A DNA stretch of 41,645 nt, taken from a virus. Positions within the stretch are counted from its first letter, which is position 1; every line of letters starts with the position of its first letter. This document shows positions 1 through 41,645 of the stretch, piece after piece. The translations under genes and the position numbers were made by a program. The notes under the pieces were generated by a model, which saw only the letters and a program-made list of their open reading frames with translations, made no database searches and was not told where the DNA came from. The stretch covers positions 1 to 41,645 of the IMG/VR virus record IMGVR_UViG_3300029922_000137; one strand, 5' to 3'.

Positions 1-105
1 GCGCAGCATTAGTTCTTCAAATGAGTCGGCGCTCAGGCGAAAGCGGGGCACATCGGCTGCCTCCATCGTTGGGACATGCTCTGGTCTGTCGGGTTTATCA
101 AACAT
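1..105 (-). CDS. Partial CDS, unknown protein (N-terminal 35 codons)
   Basis: A minus-strand reading frame opens with ATG at 105 and stays open for 35 codons to the window edge. The residues begin MFDKPDRPEHVP and end with an Arg/Ser/Glu-rich stretch (RFRLSADSFEELMLR). The start lies 8 bases inside the end of the upstream minus-strand gene (stop at 98-100), the overlap expected for translationally coupled genes in one operon. Nothing in 35 residues identifies a family. Because it directly follows a replication-initiator-like gene it may be a helicase loader or helicase, but that is only inference from context. Confidence 0.6.
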   Translation of the reverse strand, partial: MFDKPDRPEHVPTMEAADVPRFRLSADSFEELMLR

Positions 106-961
106 CTTCTTCTACGTTCTCCCTTGGTATTTTGGCTATGAAAGCGTCAATTGCCGCACTGTAATCTACTAACCAGTGGGGTAGACATTTTTCCAGGTAT
201 GACCAAGCAACTTTTGCTTTCTGGACGTTCACTTTTAACTTCATACTCGTTGCCGCTGTATCATCCTCGATGCAGGCAAACAGTGACCACAAGCGGAGCG
301 GGGAACCGGCGAGCCTAACCATAATGGGAAACCGTTTGGTCAGCGCTACCTGCTCTTTGACGGTGCATAAACATGGTGGCGTACTGAATGCTCTTAGGAT
401 TGCGTTCAGAATGAGCGTGTTGTTGTCGTCCGATAACGGCTCAAGCGCCGCTACTTTAGGCGGATGAGCCTTTGCCACCGGTGAGTCTGGAAGTGACATG
501 TTGTGATCTTTACCCTCTTCGGTATGCAGATCCGTAACCTCATCAAGCGCCTTGATGCGCTCTTCACACGTCTCATCGGATTTCAGCGGCGTAGTGAAGA
601 TGTATGTCACGTTGGACTGGCGGCCAGGTCTGTGTTGCTTCGCTACCATTCCAATCGATATGAGATCTTCTAACACATCATTCAGTTTCGATTGAGGAAT
701 ACCGGCATAGAAAGACAACTTAGAGTAGGAGCACCAGGTATGAGCTACGTTGCCGACAAGGGAGTGTGCCATAGCCACCAACGATTGCCACACGCTATAG
801 TGACTACTATCAAGCGTAAACGTGCCGGTACTTGATATTGGATCTTTGAACCGCTTTGGCTTGCGGCTCATATATTTCTCTTTATCGCCGAAGGTTGCCG
901 ACATATGTTGGATTGCAGCAAGCCAGCGAAGCAGATCAATCTGCTCTCGTCGTTTACTCAT
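98..961 (-). CDS. Winged-helix protein, replication-initiator/DnaD-like candidate
   Basis: This 287-aa protein starts with ATG at 961. Residues about 55-120 have the layout of a winged helix-turn-helix. A helical stretch is followed by 'YSKLSFYAGIPQSKLNDVLEDL', where a recognition helix picks a site, then 'IGMVAKQHRPGRQSNVTYIF', a basic beta-hairpin wing. The remainder is a hydrophilic linker and a helical C-terminal domain without catalytic motifs. Phage and plasmid replication initiators and loaders often have this N-terminal wHTH plus helical C-terminus. A transcription regulator is the main alternative. The gene is transcribed away from the tail operon and is coupled to the next minus-strand gene by an 8-base overlap. 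The intergenic region behind it carries repeats and hairpins that could be its target. No clear ribosome-binding site precedes the start. Confidence 0.65.
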   Translation of the reverse strand: MSKRREQIDLLRWLAAIQHMSATFGDKEKYMSRKPKRFKDPISSTGTFTLDSSHYSVWQSLVAMAHSLVGNVAHTWCSYSKLSFYAGIPQSKLNDVLEDLISIGMVAKQHRPGRQSNVTYIFTTPLKSDETCEERIKALDEVTDLHTEEGKDHNMSLPDSPVAKAHPPKVAALEPLSDDNNTLILNAILRAFSTPPCLCTVKEQVALTKRFPIMVRLAGSPLRLWSLFACIEDDTAATSMKLKVNVQKAKVAWSYLEKCLPHWLVDYSAAIDAFIAKIPRENVEEDV

Positions 962-14626: not shown

Positions 14627-14856
14627 CGTCTTCTTTTATCCAAGAAGCTCTCAGCCGCCACCATCAGAGGTATCAGCAAGGCCCGCATTTGCGAATCCGG
14701 GGCTATGACTTTCTCATCCTCACCACCAGGGTTTTGAGTGATCTTTTCATTGAGGAACCGCACGGCCTGACAATCCGGGCCGCCCAACGCCTCACAGAGA
14801 TCGCGGTACTCACCTAGCGTTTCTGGAGCTTCGTCCCCATCTTCGTCCAGCCTCAT
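14623..14856 (-). CDS. Small unknown protein, 77 aa
   Basis: This acidic 77-aa protein on the minus strand starts at ATG 14856, immediately after the stop of the 128-aa gene (TAA then ATG). It is probably translated by reinitiation. The sequence is Glu/Asp-rich in its first half and ends with a basic KRRR tail. No family is recognised. It converges on the spike gene, and both stop codons lie in a single CTAG (14623-14626). With the 128-aa gene it forms a two-gene cassette against the direction of the tail operon. Confidence 0.55.
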   Translation of the reverse strand: MRLDEDGDEAPETLGEYRDLCEALGGPDCQAVRFLNEKITQNPGGEDEKVIAPDSQMRALLIPLMVAAESFLDKRRR

Positions 14857-15243
14857 TTAATTAGCCGCCCGAACAACTTCGACCGCCTTTTCAAGCTCAT
14901 CGGCCCACGCCAGAAATACCTCCGGATTTGCTACTAGAACCTCAAGTTCCATCGGGAAGAAGCTTTCTACGAACTGTTTAGCTACATTAGGAATAACCTT
15001 GATTGGCAGGTCATCCGTCTCGTAAGACAGATTACCAAATGCTTTACGGATTTCTTCTCTAAACCACTTAACTAAAGACAGCGCCCCACTCGGAGTGTTA
15101 GCCACGGCGGAAAGGTTTGTTCCAAAATTCATCACAACGCGGCGTTTTTTTTTAAGGATCTGGAAGGAAGCATAACAGCCACCCCGATCCCCGTCCGTCA
15201 ACGGGACGGATCGGGGATATTCGCCAGTAGGACCAATTTTCAT
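14857..15243 (-). CDS. Small unknown protein, 128 aa
   Basis: Two starts are possible: ATG 15243 (128 aa) or an internal ATG at 15132 (91 aa). I prefer 15243 because an extended -10 element (TGTTAGAAT, 15250-15258) ends six bases before it, fitting a leaderless message. The first 37 residues are polar and basic and are encoded across a strong hairpin and a run of nine T (A on the coding strand). The remainder is helical, with Phe, Leu and Glu, and ends in a long acidic helix. No family is recognised. It heads a two-gene minus-strand cassette. Confidence 0.55.
   Translation of the reverse strand: MKIGPTGEYPRSVPLTDGDRGGCYASFQILKKKRRVVMNFGTNLSAVANTPSGALSLVKWFREEIRKAFGNLSYETDDLPIKVIPNVAKQFVESFFPMELEVLVANPEVFLAWADELEKAVEVVRAAN
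15182..15216. other. Strong hairpin inside the 5' end of the 128-aa gene
   Basis: CCCCGAT (15182-15188) pairs with ATCGGGG (15210-15216). CCGTCC (15191-15196) pairs with GGACGG (15204-15209) around a 7-base loop, with a two-base bulge on one side only. The 13-bp stem sits 27-61 bases after the start at 15243. Neither strand has a downstream T-run, so it is not an intrinsic terminator. It could modulate translation of the minus-strand mRNA or hide the internal start at 15132. Confidence 0.45.
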
Positions 15244-15249
15244 ACCCGC

Positions 15250-15258
15250 ATTCTAACA
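15250..15258 (-). promoter_or_regulatory. Extended -10 promoter for the 128-aa/77-aa cassette
   Basis: On the minus strand TGTTAGAAT matches the extended -10 pattern TGn-TAtAAT at five of six hexamer positions. The ATG at 15243 follows after six bases, so transcription would begin at or next to the start codon, giving a leaderless mRNA. No good -35 box is visible, as is usual for extended -10 promoters. Confidence 0.45.
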
Positions 15259-15295
15259 ACTTTATTCCAGCCCATTAACTTCCCGTTCTTCCAAT

Positions 15296-18262
15296 GTGGG
15301 AACGTTAGCGATATCAAATCCAATTATTTCCGTGACCGGCGACCTGACCGGCTACGCTCAAAAAGTGATGGCGCAAGCGGCGGCGATGGCCGCGCAAGGT
15401 CCGGTGGCCGACAAATCTAATTTGTGGCCCATGCAACTGCTGGGCGCTGCCGACCGCAAGATCTTGGCGGGGACGTCCAACATTGAGGCTGGCTTTCATC
15501 AAGTGCTTCAGGGCGGCCAGTTCCTGGAGCGTAATCTGGGTGACGCTATGTCTGAGATCCAGAAAGAAAAGAAGCGCATTGAGGACAACATCACGCACTG
15601 GTTAGGATTAAACCGGCTGGCAATCGACGGGCAATTATCCGACCACCCACGCGCCATCAAATTCATCGCGGACAGCATTCAGTTCGTAGATGAGATTCAA
15701 AAGTGCATCAAGGACACTTACGCGCTGGTGGCGGCGATGCAGGCGAACATTCAAATGCTGCTGGCTATCGAACAGCGCATGCTCCAGATGATCCAGGCGA
15801 ATATCAACTCCATCGCCAACCTGCTGAGTGAAATCTGTAACTGGGGTCTTCCCAGTCTGCTGTCCATGGTGGCGCAGCTAGGCAACTTGTTTCATTTCAA
15901 CGGCTTCAATTTCAACCTGCTCGCTGGCTTCAACATCTTGAATAATCTGAACCTGAAGCCAAATTTGACGTTCGGTTTTTCCTTCAACCAATGTATTAAG
16001 CGGAGCGCTAACTTCTCCGGCTTCTTTGGCACCCTGAGCAACATGGTGAATGCCGACGTATCCACGTTGACGTTCACCGTACCTTCCCCGCTGGGTGGTT
16101 ACTATGGCGACCCCAACCAGTTCACGGCTCCCGACTACATCGCGAAGATGCGGGCGACCAGCACGCCCGTCTTCAACCCTAACGTTGCCGCCAGCAGCAG
16201 CAGCACTCCCTCATCCCTTCCGGCACCGGCCTCCATCATCTCCAATTACGCCCTCACGCCCGCCTCATACGAAAGCAATATCGTTTCTATTGTTCCGGCG
16301 TTGCAGCCCGCCATGATCCAGCCATCCACCCTGCGGTCGCAATTGCTGAACTTCGTGACGTTGGGTGACGTTGTGGCGTCGAACTATGACCCGAATACCA
16401 CGGCGGCTTGGTTGTTCTACCTGAACCTGAATCGCACAGGGCGCGGCGGTCAGTGGATCAGCGCGTACGAAACCGCTTATCAATCGCTGGTTACGCCCTC
16501 CCTGAACTACCTTGCCGCCACGCCCGTCCCGTGGAACCAGGTTCTAGGCTCAACCACCATGAACGATTCGCCGCCCGCCATCCCCTTGATCCCCACGCTG
16601 CAAGCGGACACGACGCGGAACCTCCTCTGGAAGCTTTCTTACGTTGAGGCTTCCTTGTTGGGCTACCCGCGCAACTCCTCCTGGGACGCTGGGGCTGATA
16701 CGCTTTATACGTCTTCATTTACGCAAGCTGCGTTTGATTACCTCAGCACACCCTTGGTGGCCGGGGCCCCTACCACCACGACGATGTTAGGCGTTGGCAC
16801 AGCAGCCTACCCGGTAAGCGCCACCTATCCAACGGCCATAGCGGGTAATCTTACCCAAGTGATCGCATTGGCGACGGTCAATATCGCCAATACGCCAAGC
16901 TACCAGAGCAACCGGCCTCAGTTCCGCTTCACCTACGATATGTTCGCGCAAGCTACGCTGGTGGATCGCTACTCCCAGTTCTGGCGCGACTTCAACGCCA
17001 ATCTGGTATCGCTTCTCGCGCAAGATCCTTACGTGATTTCTTACGTGGTCAGTTATGTCGCCACGCTGAACGGCGCGGTGAACCCGCTGGCCGATCAGAC
17101 GGCTTATAACCAGCTTGAGGCTGACGCCATATCCAGGAACCGGACCTGGAGCTTTGGGTCCAACCTCCCGCTGATACCGGAAGCGCTGGTAAACACGGCC
17201 AGCTACCCTAGTCCCACGGCGGAAAATAACGGCTGGACTTCCGGCACCTTGAACGCAACGGCTTTCCTTTCACGGCCCGATATTCAGGCGCAAACCCTGC
17301 CCGTTCAGATCGCCATGCTTCGCACGAATCAGAGTTATGCTTCTTTGTTATCCACCCAGGCAAACGTCCAGAGCGCCGTGTCTGATGCATTAGCACAAGC
17401 GAACGCTGGCATTCAATCGATAGGGCTCTCCGGCTGGAGCATGGAAACGAACGCGGTCATTGCCGTGCAGCCGGGGGCGACCGGTCAAACCGTGGCCTTC
17501 GGTCAGACTGATTTCGACCAGACCGGGTATATTCAGGACTCCGAAACCGTCGTCGTCCCACAAAGCAACACGTTCATCGTGACCGCCAGCCTTGCTTTCG
17601 ATCCCACGGGAAGCATCGGGACCAGAACCGTCAACCTGCTTCAGAATGGCGTCGTACAAGCCACGGCCTATGGCGATAACACGAGTATTGATCCGTTTAC
17701 GGTTCAGTTCTCCACAATCATGGCCGCGAATACCGGCGACATCCTGCAAATCCAGGTGCTTCATTCGCTCCCGACCTCACAGAACTTGCTTGTGGGAAGT
17801 TCCTTCATGGGGCTGATCGACGTGAGCGCCACACCTACGAATACGACGGTCATTCCTTCGGCACCGGCCAGTTTGGACGGCAGCACCGGCTTTAATAGCG
17901 GAACGGCATTCCCGGTTCTCAGCGCGGTATTTGTCGGCTCGGACGGGAACATCTACCCGATCAACCCCGCCAGCACGGCAGTGGGGCAGATACCGCTTGC
18001 TGACGGCATAGCCTTGGCTGCTTCCACCGCCGCAGGTGAAGCCATTCAGGTGGCTGTGGTGTACGGCGCTCGTTTTCCAACGGTGGGTACGACGTGGATG
18101 CCGGGGGGACTCCTTTACGTGGGGGCGGACGGCACCTTGACACAAGACTACGCCACCATCTCCACGACCGTCCGGTGGATCGTCTGCATCGGGCGGGCGG
18201 TGACAGCGACCAGTTTCATCTATGAACCGCACATTCCGACCAACTATGTTCAGAAGTTTTGA
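15296..18262 (+). CDS. Large fibre/baseplate protein with coiled-coil N-terminus
   Basis: The frame opens with GTG at 15296 and encodes 988 aa; no clear ribosome-binding site supports the start. Residues about 15-190 are helical and likely coiled-coil. An odd segment rich in Phe, Asn and Leu follows (about 196-232). The middle is rich in Ala, Thr, Asn and Tyr with little charge, as in beta-structured fibres. Residues about 870-988 (SAVFVGSDGNIYPINP..., then GGLLYVGADGTLTQ and WIVCIGRA) resemble the compact C-terminal domain that phages attach to fibre and decoration proteins. It is probably a fibre or baseplate-attached adhesin. The exact role is unknown. Confidence 0.6.
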   Translation: MGTLAISNPIISVTGDLTGYAQKVMAQAAAMAAQGPVADKSNLWPMQLLGAADRKILAGTSNIEAGFHQVLQGGQFLERNLGDAMSEIQKEKKRIEDNITHWLGLNRLAIDGQLSDHPRAIKFIADSIQFVDEIQKCIKDTYALVAAMQANIQMLLAIEQRMLQMIQANINSIANLLSEICNWGLPSLLSMVAQLGNLFHFNGFNFNLLAGFNILNNLNLKPNLTFGFSFNQCIKRSANFSGFFGTLSNMVNADVSTLTFTVPSPLGGYYGDPNQFTAPDYIAKMRATSTPVFNPNVAASSSSTPSSLPAPASIISNYALTPASYESNIVSIVPALQPAMIQPSTLRSQLLNFVTLGDVVASNYDPNTTAAWLFYLNLNRTGRGGQWISAYETAYQSLVTPSLNYLAATPVPWNQVLGSTTMNDSPPAIPLIPTLQADTTRNLLWKLSYVEASLLGYPRNSSWDAGADTLYTSSFTQAAFDYLSTPLVAGAPTTTTMLGVGTAAYPVSATYPTAIAGNLTQVIALATVNIANTPSYQSNRPQFRFTYDMFAQATLVDRYSQFWRDFNANLVSLLAQDPYVISYVVSYVATLNGAVNPLADQTAYNQLEADAISRNRTWSFGSNLPLIPEALVNTASYPSPTAENNGWTSGTLNATAFLSRPDIQAQTLPVQIAMLRTNQSYASLLSTQANVQSAVSDALAQANAGIQSIGLSGWSMETNAVIAVQPGATGQTVAFGQTDFDQTGYIQDSETVVVPQSNTFIVTASLAFDPTGSIGTRTVNLLQNGVVQATAYGDNTSIDPFTVQFSTIMAANTGDILQIQVLHSLPTSQNLLVGSSFMGLIDVSATPTNTTVIPSAPASLDGSTGFNSGTAFPVLSAVFVGSDGNIYPINPASTAVGQIPLADGIALAASTAAGEAIQVAVVYGARFPTVGTTWMPGGLLYVGADGTLTQDYATISTTVRWIVCIGRAVTATSFIYEPHIPTNYVQKF

Positions 18263-20151: not shown

Positions 20152-20646
20152 TCAAACCCGCGTGTTGCCGTAGATCCTATCCTCCACGAAGTCAACGGTA
20201 AGAACGAAAGGCGCTTGCGGAGCCGCGCCTGGGTCGGGCGGCATGGAAACCGTGAGCCGCCCGTTGGCCCAACTCGCTTCGCTAGCCAGGAACCCGGCCT
20301 CCTGCGCGAAGGGATTGTTCGGATAGGCGTTCGTATCGGCCATATAGAACAGCATCCATAAAGGCAGGAACGATTGGGTGGCATCCACGATGGCAAGAGA
20401 CGCTCTTGAAACGATCACTAACGCCTGCGCCGGGAAGCTAGGCAGCGGGCCGCGCGTGGTGCTGGCTCCCTCCGATGACCAGGACGCCACCTCCGCTATG
20501 TTCTTCACCCCCGCCGTGTAAAAGTACCCGTCGGCGGCGAACCCATTATGGCTCAAGGAGATAGGGGTGAAAAAGGAATCCTGATCCTTCTGAAAGATGA
20601 GCAGGGATGCCAGGGTCGGTTGGTTTAGGTAGTCGTAGGTGATCAT
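20152..20646 (-). CDS. Unknown 164-aa protein
   Basis: The ATG at 20646 is preceded by GGGAAAG, a fair ribosome-binding site. The protein looks beta-rich and globular, with a conserved-looking middle (SRASLAIVDATQ, then LPLWMLFYMADTNAY) and an acidic C-terminus (FVLTVDFVEDRIYGN). No catalytic motif, signal peptide or membrane segment is evident. Its style resembles phage particle proteins more than regulators, though it lies on the opposite strand to the structural genes. It is divergent from the 1257-aa gene across a 48-base gap. Function unknown. Confidence 0.6.
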   Translation of the reverse strand: MITYDYLNQPTLASLLIFQKDQDSFFTPISLSHNGFAADGYFYTAGVKNIAEVASWSSEGASTTRGPLPSFPAQALVIVSRASLAIVDATQSFLPLWMLFYMADTNAYPNNPFAQEAGFLASEASWANGRLTVSMPPDPGAAPQAPFVLTVDFVEDRIYGNTRV

Positions 20647-36132: not shown

Positions 36133-36900
36133 ATGAGTTATGATCTTTCCTCCATCGCTCAGACTTGCGACCATCTAATCTTGCTGGAGCGGTATCGCGT
36201 CAGCGTCAGCGACTTCCAGACGCTTCAGTTCTCATCGCCGCCCGCCGCGACGGTCAACATGCGCGCTCCGATCAATGGCGTTGCCATGCTGAAGCTGTTT
36301 ATCAAGGGCGTGCAAGTGTCTCCGACCGACCCCAATTTCGGCTATTCGATTGTGCCTGATCCATCGCGCGTCCTGGCGGATTACGTCTTTTCCAAGATCA
36401 TCTTCAACCAACCCGTGCGGCAGGTAGGCTCCTTGATTGAGGTGACCTATTTTACCCGCGAAGACTTCTGCCTGAAGTGCGGGGGAACGGGGCAGGTCAT
36501 CGATTGGCAAACGTCGCAATCGGGCGGTTTACTCCATACTTTTGGCGACAAGAAACTCAGCCAGCAGGTATTCAAGTACATCTTGACGTCCATCAATCCG
36601 TTCAACCCTAACTTAACGTGCCCCATTCGCAGCTACGTGGGCAAGAAGTTCGGTTTGAGCATTACCGATCAGGACATCTCTTCCGCCGTGACGACCGCGT
36701 TGGCAACTTACCAGACAATCCAGGCGGCGCAAAAGACGGTACAAACGTTAAGCCCGCAGGAGATGATCAAGAATGTAACATCGGTGGAAGCCCGCCAGGA
36801 CCCTACCGACCCGCTAACCATTTACCTTGCGCTTCAAGTGACGGTGTATGGGCTGGCGCAGCCGATTCCGTTGAACATTACTTTGCAGACCAACTCGTAG
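36133..36900 (+). CDS. Baseplate wedge candidate (gp25-like C-terminus)
   Basis: The start is ATG 36133, five bases after GGAGA (36124-36128), giving 255 aa; extension to 35983 is unsupported. Residues about 150-250 read CPIRSYVGKKFGLSITD, a helix, then SVEARQDPTDPLTIYLALQVTV. This 'VxxVExRxDPxDP...LxVxLxV' layout is the signature of gp25/GpW-type wedge proteins. Residues 113-120 are CLKCGGTG, a single CxxC knuckle. The gene precedes the J-like wedge gene, interrupted only by three small island genes, and the gp25-like to J-like order is typical of contractile systems. Confident as baseplate, moderate as gp25-like. Confidence 0.6.
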   Translation: MSYDLSSIAQTCDHLILLERYRVSVSDFQTLQFSSPPAATVNMRAPINGVAMLKLFIKGVQVSPTDPNFGYSIVPDPSRVLADYVFSKIIFNQPVRQVGSLIEVTYFTREDFCLKCGGTGQVIDWQTSQSGGLLHTFGDKKLSQQVFKYILTSINPFNPNLTCPIRSYVGKKFGLSITDQDISSAVTTALATYQTIQAAQKTVQTLSPQEMIKNVTSVEARQDPTDPLTIYLALQVTVYGLAQPIPLNITLQTNS

Positions 36901-36910
36901 TTGTAAGCGG

Positions 36911-36916
36911 TATTAT
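36911..36916 (+). promoter_or_regulatory. -10-like element for the first island gene
   Basis: TATTAT at 36911-36916 ends six bases before ATG 36923, and no ribosome-binding site is present. It is preceded by GCGG, as is the -10-like element of the next gene (GCGGTATTAT versus GCGGTACAAT). No convincing -35 is visible. Confidence 0.35.
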
Positions 36917-36922
36917 CATTTT

Positions 36923-37591
36923 ATGAACCGCCGCGAACTTCTCAGCCTCATTCCTTCTATCGCTATCGGTGCCGCCGCGCAGCCGTTAGCGAAATCGGCC
37001 TCACAATCGGCATCAACGCCCACGCTTCAAATAATGAAATCGCTGTCAAAGCAAAATCTTTTGGATGCATTTGACGAATTTAAACGCCAGCACGTTAAGG
37101 CGAACTGTTTGGATATCAACCCAACAGACATGCCACTTCTGCGGGAAATGATGGGTTTTAGGGGTGCGCCATTTACACCCAAAATATCTATGTTTGGTGC
37201 AACGGTACGCGAAGATCCAATGCAGTACCCAGGAACGTTTTTCATGAACCCGATAGTGGATACAAATGCCGATCTAAGGTTCGCATCACGCTATACTCCT
37301 TGCCGATCAGAAGAACAGGCCGAGGGGATGACGCGGCTTGCGGATGCGTTTGTGGGATTCAGGACGCTATTCCATGGCCGTGCGGTCGCTGGGTTGCTTA
37401 TGAACGCAGTTGATTCACCGCGCTTAGCGATTAACTTTGACGTGGACCACTATGTATCTGATTTGGTATGGCCCAAAGAGGTCATAGGTACATTGTGGGG
37501 GGCTGACGTCATCGTCCACAATTCAAATCGTCCTGGCTTTAGTTTGTTGCTAGCGGGGAATGGCCGTGGGCTCGTGGAATTTGAATGGTAA
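36923..37591 (+). CDS. Exported protein of unknown function with Tat-like signal
   Basis: The 222-aa protein opens MNRRELLSLIPSIAIGAAAQPLAKSA. A twin arginine followed by Leu-Leu and a hydrophobic Ala/Ile stretch with an AxA-type end is a Tat-like signal, although the motif is not perfect. The mature part has no recognised domain; conserved-looking pieces include FFMNPIVDTNADLRF and LWGADVIVHNSN. Exported proteins are unusual in a baseplate operon, so this looks like a moron (lysogenic conversion or superinfection gene). Transcription probably starts just before the ATG. A phage structural protein with a coincidental hydrophobic N-terminus is the alternative. Confidence 0.55.
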   Translation: MNRRELLSLIPSIAIGAAAQPLAKSASQSASTPTLQIMKSLSKQNLLDAFDEFKRQHVKANCLDINPTDMPLLREMMGFRGAPFTPKISMFGATVREDPMQYPGTFFMNPIVDTNADLRFASRYTPCRSEEQAEGMTRLADAFVGFRTLFHGRAVAGLLMNAVDSPRLAINFDVDHYVSDLVWPKEVIGTLWGADVIVHNSNRPGFSLLLAGNGRGLVEFEW

Positions 37592-37630
37592 GCCGCTCAA
37601 GCTATTGGTCAGATCGGCCCCAAACCCTAA

Positions 37631-37647
37631 AATGCGGTACAATGCGG
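37631..37647 (+). promoter_or_regulatory. Direct repeat with -10-like TACAAT before the nucleotidyltransferase gene
   Basis: AATGCGG occurs at 37631-37637 and 37641-37647, one helical turn apart. TACAAT (37638-37643, five of six consensus bases) straddles the junction and ends eight bases before GTG 37652. No ribosome-binding site is visible. The repeat could be an operator overlapping a leaderless promoter. Confidence 0.4.
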
Positions 37648-37651
37648 ATAG

Positions 37652-38260
37652 GTGTCACAGCAAGCCAATAAATCGGTGGTAGAGAGCTTGGACGCCGCGT
37701 TTCACCGGGAGGCGCGTCTTATTCGTAGAGTGAGCGGTAGCACCAAATTAGAGACGGCGATGCGCAAGGCGGTTAAGATATTGGCAGACAACGGCATTCC
37801 ACATCTGATCGCCGATGGCATGGCTATCACTGAGCGCGGATACCCCCGGACCACAAAGGATGTTGATATTATCGTCCCTGACATTTACATCGCGCACGAC
37901 ACACTTATCAAAGCTGGATTTAAGCAGAGCAAGAAAAAACGCACCGATGTGGTCGATCCGAAATCTGAGGTCTTAATCAACTTACTGGCTGGCGGCGAGA
38001 AAGTTTTGGATCAAGGGCTGCCGTTACCTCAACCTACAGTCGTAAGCGACAAGCCGCAAATTGCATCGCTGGATAATCTCATCCATATGAAGTTATCAGC
38101 GGGCAGGTCCCAAGATTTTGCTGATGTCGTGGCGCTTATAAAGGCAAACTCGTTGCCCAAGGACTACCGCGTCCACAGGATGGTTAAAGTTGATTACCTA
38201 GAGGCGTGGGACACGGCGTCGGTAGAACAAGCGACGGAAGACTTGCTGGGTGGATCTTAA
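37652..38260 (+). CDS. Nucleotidyltransferase, AbiEii-like toxin fold
   Basis: GTG 37652 starts a 202-aa protein. Residues 53-72 (IADGMAITERGYPRTTKDVD) match the polymerase-beta-type nucleotidyltransferase core, in which a G-x-A turn precedes R-x-T-x-D-x-D. Asp70 and Asp72 are predicted metal ligands. Residues 147-158 (KLSAGRSQDFAD) match the helix with K-x3-x-R-x2-D seen in the AbiEii/DUF1814 group. Such proteins transfer nucleotides to tRNA or other acceptors and often act as type IV toxins or abortive-infection effectors. The usual AbiEi-type antitoxin is not adjacent. It may be a defence or superinfection-exclusion moron, or a tRNA-modifying enzyme. Confidence 0.75.
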   Translation: MSQQANKSVVESLDAAFHREARLIRRVSGSTKLETAMRKAVKILADNGIPHLIADGMAITERGYPRTTKDVDIIVPDIYIAHDTLIKAGFKQSKKKRTDVVDPKSEVLINLLAGGEKVLDQGLPLPQPTVVSDKPQIASLDNLIHMKLSAGRSQDFADVVALIKANSLPKDYRVHRMVKVDYLEAWDTASVEQATEDLLGGS

Positions 38261-38280
38261 CCTTTCAGTGCAACTCGTAG

Positions 38281-38298
38281 TTTCAACAATTGTTGAAA
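38281..38298. promoter_or_regulatory. Perfect 18-bp palindromic operator
   Basis: TTTCAACAATTGTTGAAA is its own exact reverse complement. Its right edge contains the -35 box (TTGAAA) of the promoter below, so a dimeric repressor binding here would block transcription of the 69-aa gene. The binding protein is not identified. Confidence 0.65.
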
Positions 38299-38320
38299 AT
38301 AGCCGCAACTATGATAAAAT
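38293..38320 (+). promoter_or_regulatory. Promoter TTGAAA-N16-TAAAAT of the 69-aa gene
   Basis: The -35 TTGAAA (38293-38298) and -10 TAAAAT (38315-38320) each match consensus at five of six positions with a 16-base spacer. The ATG at 38330 follows nine bases after the -10 and lacks a ribosome-binding site. The mRNA should have a leader of at most a few bases. Confidence 0.6.
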
Positions 38321-38329
38321 TGCACTCAA

Positions 38330-38539
38330 ATGGAAAAACTATATCAGGAACATCCGACTGAAGAGGTTCTGGAGCGTTTTATCCTGAACACATCTTCTGA
38401 AGACGAGCTTGAATCAGTCGAAACGCATATACTCGCTTGTGAGCATTGCGTGAATCAATTGGAGACTATTGAGACTGATATTGCCGCGACCCGTTTAGCC
38501 CTGCAAAATGTGGAAACCAACACAATCGGTGCCGGATAA
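38330..38539 (+). CDS. Zinc-finger anti-sigma-like (ZAS) protein, 69 aa
   Basis: The 69-aa protein carries His33-x3-Cys37-x2-Cys40 (ETHILACEHC), the metal-binding signature of ZAS anti-sigma domains, in an acidic helical context (PTEEVLERFILN, then a C-terminal helix). It resembles small proteins I associate with acidobacterial genomes, where many copies exist with unclear role; this recollection cannot be checked here. It lacks a membrane anchor. It could bind a host sigma factor to redirect transcription or control island expression. It is preceded by the only complete promoter/operator pair of the island and has no ribosome-binding site. Confidence 0.65.
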   Translation: MEKLYQEHPTEEVLERFILNTSSEDELESVETHILACEHCVNQLETIETDIAATRLALQNVETNTIGAG

Positions 38540-38619
38540 GAAGGGCCGATTCGCCCGTTGGCGGTCTTAGGTAAAGGCACGAACTCAGCTTTAGGCCGTA
38601 AATAACCTTTTGGCTTCCT

Positions 38620-38640
38620 TTCTAGAGGTTGTTCTAGAGG
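38620..38640 (+). repeat. Tandem direct repeat TTCTAGAGG before the J-like gene
   Basis: TTCTAGAGG occurs at 38620-38628 and 38632-38640. The first AGAGG (spacer 12 to ATG 38641) is a usable ribosome-binding site; the second abuts the ATG and is too close. The duplication may be a recent local repeat or may tune translation. Confidence 0.5.
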
Positions 38641-41600
38641 ATGCCCACTCAGCTAGCCGCACTTACCATCGTTTCTCCATCGTTCCCGGCGAACAGCACG
38701 ACGCTTTCGGTCGCTACCTCCCTGCTCCCGCTGGTGATCGATGCCGACACGAATACGATAGCCGTTGATGTTGTGCTGGGCGCGGATGCCACGCCCACGA
38801 CGCTCACCGCCTTCACGCTGGTGAATGGCCTGAATCAGTTCACCGGCACCGTCCCCGTCTCCTCCTCTACCGACCCGCAAACAGTTAGCATCGTGGGCCG
38901 TAATTATAGCTCCACCGTCACCCCGGCCACGCCCCTGACGACGCCCACCATTCAATTTGACCTTCTTTACAGCGCGACCCGGCTCGGCTTCAGCATCGGC
39001 CCTCCCTCCGGTGTGACCGTCTATAAGAGCCAGAATACCTGCCAGGTGGAGTGGGCCATTCCCACCTATAGCGGCTTCCAGGGCGTCCGGGTTCAATGGT
39101 CCACCGATCCTTCCGGCGTCACCGTACCCTTTGTCCAGATTGGGGGGCTTCAGACCGAACTTACCCGCAGCGCCGACGTGACGGTTGTGGCCCCGGTTGC
39201 CTCTACGGCTTCGGTCGCGCAACCGATTGTTCCCGGCTTGGCCCCCACGAATCTGGTCACCACCACATCGGTTGAGACAACCGTAACAGTGGACTACAGT
39301 TCCCTCACCATCCCGTCTTCCACCGTCAATACGGACGTGTTCTACGTCATTTTGAGTAGCTTGATGCAAGATCCGGTGACGAATCAAGTCTATGAGTCGC
39401 AAGACGCAGGCCCGTTCTTGTGTGGTTTCGTCAATCTGAAGAAAGTCAACCCCACCGACTTCCTGGCCCTGCAACAGTCGTCCGATATCGCCACTCGCCT
39501 GATTACTGAAGTGACGCGGCGGAGGCCGGATCTAGATCTCACCGCCCGTGCTGAAATCCGCGACCTCATCATCAATCCGCTTTCGCTGGAGCTAGCAAAC
39601 ATGAGCGTGAGGGAGTGGTTTTCCCGCTGCGCGATATCCATTTCGGCCATTTCTCAGATTGATGACGCCAATGGCGACGGGATCTCCGATCCGGTGGCAT
39701 CGTCCGCCGTCAAACAGCAGATCGCCCGTGCTTATGGGCTTTCGGCGACCGCCGTTCAGACGTTCATTGATGGCCGGTTCGACATCCTGGGCGAACAGGC
39801 GGGGGTCGAGCGCGGCGGCGCAACGGCGGCGGTGGTTCCCCTAACCTTCTACGTCTATTCACTGCCCACGAGTCTCATCACGATTCCCGCTGGCATCATT
39901 TGTTCCACGCTGCCGAATGGCGTGGATACAGCGGCGGTTTCTTTCGTCACCCAAGGATCGGCCACCATTGATCCGACGAACGCCAGCGCCTATTACAGCC
40001 CTTCCTTTGGCTGGTGGGGCGTGACCGTTCCCGCACAGGCCCAAGTCGCCGGAGCCGCCAGCACGGTGGGAGCCGAAACGATCAGGCAAGTCTCCACCGG
40101 AGGTCCATCCGGTATATCGGTGATCAACCTGACCGCTTCCTACGATGGTACGGATGAGCAGGCTAATGCCGATTATGCGGCCATGATCCAGAACCGCCTG
40201 GTGGCGGGTAAAGATTCAGGCACCCGCAATGGCTACTGGAATACCACCATGTCCATTCCCGGCATCACGAACGCCCTGGTGGTGGCGGCGGGCGACTTGG
40301 ACATGCTGCGCGACTGGTCCTCCATCATTGCCCGACACACCTATGGCTGTGTCGATATCTATGCCAGAGGGACGACGCTTTCACAGCAGACGGAAGAAGT
40401 GCCCTTCACGCTTCCGGCGACCTCTACCTATGGCGTCTACTCGACCTACCTAAACGCCGTCTTGGCGGATAAAACCAAGCCTAGCTTCAAAATTCTTGAC
40501 TTCGCCGCGCTCACGCAGCCGCTTTATTCCCTGGTGGAGATGACCGTCAGTTATGCGGGCCAAACTATCTGGTTGGGCACTACCAACGCCCAGATCGATA
40601 ATTCCGGTGGCCAATTATTCCTCAACCCGAATGACCTCACCTACGTCATCAACGCGGATGGCACGATCACCCTCTGGCAGATTAACGGCGTGAACGCCAC
40701 GAATTTAGCGTTCATTCAGGCATTGAGCGCCGTACCCGCCACGTATGCGTTCCTGGCTCAGTATCAAAGTGGCATCACGCACACGCCCATCCTCCAACCT
40801 GTCGATGCCGTCGATTCGATTACCGGGAACCTGAGCGGCGCGATTCCCGCCGCCGATATAGAACTTGTCTACACCAACGATTTCCTGTTGACGGGCGGTT
40901 CCAATAATGCGGGCGACCTGGTTACGGTCGGCGGCGCTCTCTCGTCCATCGTCACGAATACGTTGACTTTGGCCACCGCGACTACCGTGATCGACAGCAA
41001 CATGAATATCGGCGTCAACTCTGCCGGTCAATTGCAAAACATCCTGTCCGTACGCTCCGCCGATCTTTCGACCGTCTACACGTTTGGTTTGGATTACACA
41101 CTCGTGGCGGCGGGCCGGTACCATACCTACGCGCTGCAAGTGCTGAACGACCAAACCGGCGCTCCGCGTATCCCGCTCGGCACCAATACGGTGATCGTTG
41201 CTTACTATCGCTTCTTATTGCGCGAATCGGTCACGTTGCAGACCGATAACTTGACTTTGAGCGGGTCCACGCCCACGCCGCTGTCCCATGGCGGCTTTAT
41301 CTATAATTCATGGCTCCCGGCCAGCCACGGGGACACGACTCTTCTCTTGGACGGCTACGTGAGCCCAACGCTGGCGTATACGGGCCTGTTGGGCGCTGGC
41401 GTTCCCGCCGCTTCGCGTTACATAAAAGTCACCTATAACAATGGCGTGGCGGCGGTAGTCATGATCGAAGGGAAGGACTTCACGCTCAGCGTCGATCCAG
41501 TGACGGGCAATGCGGCGCTCACGCGCGTACTGGGCGGATCTCTGCCGGATGGGGGCGCGGTGACGGTTCTTTACTTCACAGCGGAAGTATTCACGATCCA

Positions 41601-41645
41601 GACGGAATACCCCGCTTACGTGCAGGAACTGGTTTCGGCGGTAGC
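38641..41645 (+). CDS. Baseplate J (gp47)-like wedge protein, C-terminally cut by window end
   Basis: The frame opens at ATG 38641 and stays open for 1001 codons to the window edge. The first 300 residues are beta-rich, Thr/Pro/Val-rich repeats, perhaps Ig-like. Residues 341-350 (DDANGDGISD) match a calcium-binding EF-hand/dockerin loop. From about 395 to 580 the baseplate J pattern is clear: ITIPAGIICSTLPNG, YDGTDEQANADYAAMI, GTRNGYWNTTMSIPGITNA and GCVDIYARG. The region after that adds further beta domains. J-like proteins form the wedge ring that triggers sheath contraction. The length far exceeds the core domain, as in large myophages. Identification of the core is strong. Confidence 0.8.
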   Translation, partial: MPTQLAALTIVSPSFPANSTTLSVATSLLPLVIDADTNTIAVDVVLGADATPTTLTAFTLVNGLNQFTGTVPVSSSTDPQTVSIVGRNYSSTVTPATPLTTPTIQFDLLYSATRLGFSIGPPSGVTVYKSQNTCQVEWAIPTYSGFQGVRVQWSTDPSGVTVPFVQIGGLQTELTRSADVTVVAPVASTASVAQPIVPGLAPTNLVTTTSVETTVTVDYSSLTIPSSTVNTDVFYVILSSLMQDPVTNQVYESQDAGPFLCGFVNLKKVNPTDFLALQQSSDIATRLITEVTRRRPDLDLTARAEIRDLIINPLSLELANMSVREWFSRCAISISAISQIDDANGDGISDPVASSAVKQQIARAYGLSATAVQTFIDGRFDILGEQAGVERGGATAAVVPLTFYVYSLPTSLITIPAGIICSTLPNGVDTAAVSFVTQGSATIDPTNASAYYSPSFGWWGVTVPAQAQVAGAASTVGAETIRQVSTGGPSGISVINLTASYDGTDEQANADYAAMIQNRLVAGKDSGTRNGYWNTTMSIPGITNALVVAAGDLDMLRDWSSIIARHTYGCVDIYARGTTLSQQTEEVPFTLPATSTYGVYSTYLNAVLADKTKPSFKILDFAALTQPLYSLVEMTVSYAGQTIWLGTTNAQIDNSGGQLFLNPNDLTYVINADGTITLWQINGVNATNLAFIQALSAVPATYAFLAQYQSGITHTPILQPVDAVDSITGNLSGAIPAADIELVYTNDFLLTGGSNNAGDLVTVGGALSSIVTNTLTLATATTVIDSNMNIGVNSAGQLQNILSVRSADLSTVYTFGLDYTLVAAGRYHTYALQVLNDQTGAPRIPLGTNTVIVAYYRFLLRESVTLQTDNLTLSGSTPTPLSHGGFIYNSWLPASHGDTTLLLDGYVSPTLAYTGLLGAGVPAASRYIKVTYNNGVAAVVMIEGKDFTLSVDPVTGNAALTRVLGGSLPDGGAVTVLYFTAEVFTIQTEYPAYVQELVSAV

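Follow-up and report, generated by a model that had tools for sequence, protein, structure and literature searches.

The closest described systems are phage morons, leaderless genes, MenT1/AbiEii nucleotidyltransferases and zinc anti-sigma domains. The moron pid of phage P22 lies in the late region and is an independent transcription unit among late genes (PMC3573128). For leaderless genes a signature of TANNNT about 12 nt upstream has been published (PMC3160421). The essential residues of the nucleotidyltransferase MenT1 include D41, K137 and D152 (PMC11375011). The zinc anti-sigma domains (ZAS or ZASD) of ChrR, RsrA and RsiW have four zinc ligands with the pattern H-x3-C-x2-C. Here we analyzed a fragment of a soil phage, the virus record IMGVR_UViG_3300029922_000137, a complete IMG/VR record of 41,645 bases referred to as the window. 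It carries a three-gene island that shares features with each of these systems and is probably a moron insertion.

The island (36901..38640, +) fills a gap of 1,740 bp from the stop of a gp25/sheath-initiator-like baseplate wedge gene (36133..36900, +) to the start of a J-like baseplate wedge gene (38641..41643, +), which reaches the window end. It contains three open reading frames (ORFs): an orphan gene of 222 aa with an N-terminus resembling twin-arginine translocation (Tat) signals (36923..37591, +), a MenT1/AbiEii-like nucleotidyltransferase (NTase) gene of 202 aa (37652..38260, +) and a soluble zinc anti-sigma-like (zf-HC2) gene of 69 aa (38330..38539, +). All three were located exactly where a preliminary description of this DNA had placed them. 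The same description had proposed a moron island, which is backed by the empty related junctions, the low GC content, a promoter-like element for each gene and the repeat at the boundary. The island would have entered the baseplate operon of a phage with a contractile tail at an intergenic joint. We assign a probability of about 0.7 to a moron island with three independent pieces of cargo. It is well supported that the three small cargo genes form a real but ordinary moron-type insertion at the baseplate joint, known in kind and new in its combination of cargo.

The identity of both flanks was confirmed. Members of the left-flank family matched baseplate wedge phrog_43 in PHROG (2.8e-6) and Sheath_initiator in Pfam (7.8e-4), and the right flank matched Pfam Baseplate_J (6.4e-10), with a start consistent with that in the relative L005. 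The J-like protein had 26 relatives in IMG/VR, some of them on contigs up to 512 kb. Both baseplate genes were present in 25 related loci, 20 of which were distinct after identical junctions had been removed. The distance from gp25 stop to J start was -1 to 30 bp in the 25 loci, as opposed to 1,740 bp in the window, and the two genes are normally adjacent as had been assumed. When the related phages were checked for the wedge junction with and without the island, every one was without it: the junction was empty in 20/20 distinct loci, from near as well as distant relatives.

The base composition of the island is unlike that of its flanks. Its GC content of 0.491 ranked first among 799 windows of that size and was below nearly all others. 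The codon use of all three genes deviated as well (z of -5.2 for the Tat-like gene, -2.0 for the NTase gene and -2.6 for the ZAS gene), while the flanks were typical (+2.4 and +5.8). The comparison of GC and codon use that had been suggested earlier is in favour of the insertion.

Each island gene is preceded by a -10-like box. For the exported-protein gene it is TATTAT (36911..36916, +), ending 6 nt upstream of the ATG; for the NTase gene it is TACAAT (37638..37643, +), ending 8 nt upstream of the GTG; and for the ZAS gene it is TAAAAT (38315..38320, +), ending 9 nt upstream of the ATG. No Shine-Dalgarno sequence was found upstream of the three genes, which all show the leaderless combination in their sequence. 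The boxes are far above background: by chance, about 0.5% of sites in the window would have a TATAAT-like box, and few such ORFs were found in related phage contigs. The earlier claim of a -10-like element without ribosome-binding site is correct for all three genes. Its extension, that most structural neighbours differ in this respect, is only partly right, as a crude count gave a Shine-Dalgarno-like match in 11 of 26 window ORFs. The idea that the NTase family passes on the leaderless layout by descent was rejected, since the layout is absent upstream of the relatives.

Before the ZAS gene the box belongs to a -35/-10 pair, TTGAAA-16-TAAAAT (38293-38320). A perfect palindrome of 16 bp, TTCAACAATTGTTGAA (38282..38297, unstranded), lies over the -35-like hexamer and is a possible operator. 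No second site for it was found in the window even at 3 mismatches. The terminator scan revealed no intrinsic terminator-like site after the ZAS gene. Each island gene may be transcribed separately from a host-type promoter, in which case expression would be possible outside the late burst.

An imperfect direct repeat of 33 nt marks the left border. Its left copy (36870..36902, +) covers the 3' end of gp25 including the stop codon, and its right copy (38250..38282, +) is located at the 3' end of the NTase gene. The copies are identical at 25 of 33 positions compared with a maximum of 21/33 in 400 simulated islands, a comparison that somewhat overstates the significance because the reference copy was picked after the repeat had been noticed. 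A 12-nt core occurs twice in the 41.6-kb window, at the gp25 stop and at the NTase gene end, and no further site was present in the window even allowing one mismatch. Read in the gp25 frame, the right copy gives WILTFQCNS* compared with LNITLQTNS* at the gp25 end.

The repeat suggests an assembly in two steps, one for a cassette of the Tat-like and NTase genes and one for the ZAS gene. In the simplest reading, the cassette would have brought along, or created, a copy of the gp25 end, with the ZAS gene as a separate unit. The island was probably built in at least two steps, from a Tat-protein and NTase cassette bounded by a copy of the 3' end of gp25 and a ZAS gene with a dyad-marked promoter.

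Two related loci were inspected by eye. In L007 (5945-6496, likewise in L011) an HNH-like ORF of 183 aa lies between homologues of the window genes gp233 and gp25; it marks a further insertion in that operon of a relative, one gene upstream of the island joint. In L032 a GIY-YIG-like ORF on the reverse strand (14747-15496, counted on the reversed sequence) is located ~1.2 kb upstream of an NTase homologue. These ORFs make homing-type gene conversion a plausible route, while the island itself holds no HNH- or GIY-YIG-like gene.

Several points weigh against a moron insertion. The island is known from one contig alone. A second contig (L002), 99.98% identical, stops at window position 36787, 115 bp short of the island, and neither a second copy nor an empty twin is therefore at hand. 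The contig could break here because some strains carry the island and others do not, or by coincidence. The nearest empty sites belong to phages just 38-49% identical in gp25, which would allow for more than one age and more than one unit of insertion. Codon use also deviates outside the island, in some long structural genes (g1106, z -8.4; g906, z -4.4). The dinucleotide signature of the island is ordinary and was rejected as proof of foreign origin.

At E <= 1 the NTase of the window itself had no match among the models of Pfam, PHROG, NCBIfam and PADLOC, and as a single query it retrieved nothing from viral and genome contigs. Its relatives were recovered with a family alignment, which matched AbiEii, NTP_transf_5 and DUF2204. 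The AlphaFold2 model (pLDDT 91.5) has a MenT/AbiEii-class fold: the best Foldseek match was MenT1 (E 4e-6, probability 1.00, with a modest full-length TM of 0.41-0.47), followed by ANT(2'')-Ia. The earlier term AbiEii-type holds at clan level only, by family matches and fold, but the window protein itself fits no family model.

The equivalents of MenT1 T39, D41 and D43 are retained (D70/D72 aligned), and K147 and R152-D155-D158 match MenT1 K137, R146, D149 and D152 by spacing only. A surely dead NTase was rejected, since it seems to retain the essential MenT1 residues, the later K and D residues by spacing. Two near-invariant positions are changed. Position 55 is Gly in 29/30 aligned members and position 110 is Asp or Glu in 29/30, with Asp and Asn, respectively, in the window protein only. 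The GG/GS-motif glycine and the third family-conserved acid are thus missing. These changes weaken the reading as a toxin, and the protein may be weakened or repurposed. If active at all, it would tentatively be a MenT/AbiEii-like nucleotide transferase of reduced activity.

Three related phage records carry relatives of the NTase at positions different from this one, and more were found in further phages and bacteria. Among 297 Acidobacteriota genomes, 49 had a match at 1e-5 and about 24 a strong one. No partner was constant in the neighbourhoods of the relatives, and both other island genes were missing there. In the related phage L033, a stand-alone NTase homologue begins within an ORF (59-1614) that resembles the C-terminal part of CCA-adding enzymes (PolyA_pol_RNAbd, 5.6e-18). 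In large phage contigs, the match to the NTase falls partly or wholly on an ORF of 633 aa (L065, 607-2508; L066, 4554-6455), possibly a fusion. A stand-alone NTase in a metagenome-assembled genome (MAG) of the Bryobacteraceae (L049, 3926-4540) lies between 2-isopropylmalate-synthase-like and isopropylmalate-dehydrogenase-like genes, which indicates that the family inserts into host biosynthetic operons too.

The NTase could be an active MenT/AbiEii toxin with a neighbour, for example the ZAS protein, as its antitoxin, and the pair would serve for stabilisation or the exclusion of superinfecting phages. In favour of this, the fold is best matched by MenT1, and MenA antitoxins vary widely. The kept T39, D41 and D43 equivalents and the fit of the later K and of RxxDxxD to MenT1 residues (PMC11375011) point in the same direction. 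However, family-model scans found no known antitoxin family among the island neighbours, the relatives have no constant neighbouring partner, the substitutions G55 to D and D/E110 to N occur in the window protein alone, and separate promoters take the place of an operon. We regard a toxin-antitoxin module as quite unlikely.

The third gene was upheld as ZAS by its ligand pattern (H8 and H33-x3-C37-x2-C40, all four also conserved in host relatives), though its zf-HC2 match (E 0.0074) of 16.8 bits is below the Pfam cut-off of 22.2. The best relative (E 3.8e-7) belongs to a Bryobacteraceae MAG, and the nearest relatives are the N-termini of longer, membrane anti-sigma-like Bryobacteraceae proteins that bear a hydrophobic segment. 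The window protein has no such segment and would therefore be soluble. It might act as an anti-sigma domain free of the membrane and hold an extracytoplasmic function (ECF) sigma factor of the host, although we consider this function doubtful. The scans made found no phage relatives: a ZAS-profile scan of viral contigs was empty, and the gene was absent from 27 related viral records. The Bryobacteraceae relatives of both the NTase and the ZAS protein hint at an acidobacterial host.

The first gene starts with MNRRELLSLIPSIAIGAAAQPLA. In a sequence test for a twin-arginine motif followed by a hydrophobic stretch, the hydropathy maximum was 1.67 at residue 5. No relative was found anywhere searched, including the 27 related viral records. 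LpxC-like, CpaF-like and MurB-like matches were at chance level and rejected, and the single-sequence fold was uninformative (pLDDT 31.5). The putative exported orphan might act in the envelope, and for this gene as for the other two the proposed function is tentative.

The preliminary description had joined the exported protein, an NTase effector and a sigma-binding protein into one system acting in exclusion or host takeover. The three genes are indeed adjacent, on the same strand and alike in their leaderless -10 layout. However, when co-occurrence of the three families was checked elsewhere, they were never found together, and a conserved three-gene system was rejected. The NTase relatives stand alone, without either partner; the exported protein is an orphan and, like the ZAS gene, absent from the related viral records; none of the scans gave a phage relative of the ZAS protein. 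Additionally, the repeat parts the first two genes from the third, and the NTase is altered at two family-invariant positions. One joint system is very unlikely. In a more specific version, the leaderless trio would jointly control the host of a large soil phage, with expression ahead of the late programme or independent of it. Here the anti-sigma domain would silence a host envelope-stress sigma factor, and the exported and NTase-fold proteins would act on envelope and tRNA. We consider this proposal highly speculative.

An assembly artefact, in which foreign DNA was chimerically joined between two phage genes, would fit the single contig and the near-identical contig that ends 115 bp before the border. 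However, synteny is correct on both sides, with J after gp25 and both on one strand, as in the relatives, and the left border repeat and an NTase common to related phages fit a biological insertion; an artefact has only a slim chance of being correct. That the genes are ancestral baseplate components lost in all relatives, as their position and strand within the baseplate operon might suggest, is already contradicted and next to impossible, since they are missing from all 20 distinct junctions, show no resemblance to virion proteins, and have low GC and own promoter-like boxes.

Further observations concern the window as a whole, in which no tRNA and no Rfam RNA match was found. The gp25-like family, including the window member at 36133-36900, has an invariant CxxC (residues 113 and 116) that is unusual for a sheath initiator and is possibly a metal site. 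At the window edge, the ORF at 98-961 (-) weakly matched phrog_8540, replication initiation O-like (4e-4). A 164-aa ORF at 20152-20646 (-), located before a 1257-aa tail gene, by eye resembles the minus-strand ORF 2460-2990 of L033 in the same place; the two possibly mark a second accessory site common to both.

A moron insertion at this joint would document a multi-gene moron in a baseplate-operon joint that is closed in every relative found, within a phage group whose large relatives include contigs of up to 512 kb. The border repeat may record the mode of cargo insertion. Should the ZAS protein bind an ECF sigma factor of the host, the phage would carry an anti-sigma domain that is free of the membrane and was probably acquired from a host of the acidobacterial type.

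Compared with the known systems, the NTase shares the fold, T-x-D-x-D, the later K and RxxDxxD with MenT1/AbiEii. It differs in having no antitoxin gene beside it, in the changes of Gly55 to Asp and Asp/Glu110 to Asn, and in relatives that are single genes. The ZAS protein has the same four zinc ligands as ChrR, RsrA and RsiW, whereas its 69 aa make up the domain only, with no membrane helix, sensor domain or adjacent sigma factor gene. The island genes match published leaderless genes (PMC3160421) in the sequence and distance of the -10 box and in lacking a Shine-Dalgarno sequence; here, the layout is concentrated in the island. Like P22 pid, the island would be independently transcribed among late genes. 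In contrast to pid (PMC3573128), the cargo here consists of three genes of leaderless layout in late-gene orientation, placed at a baseplate joint.
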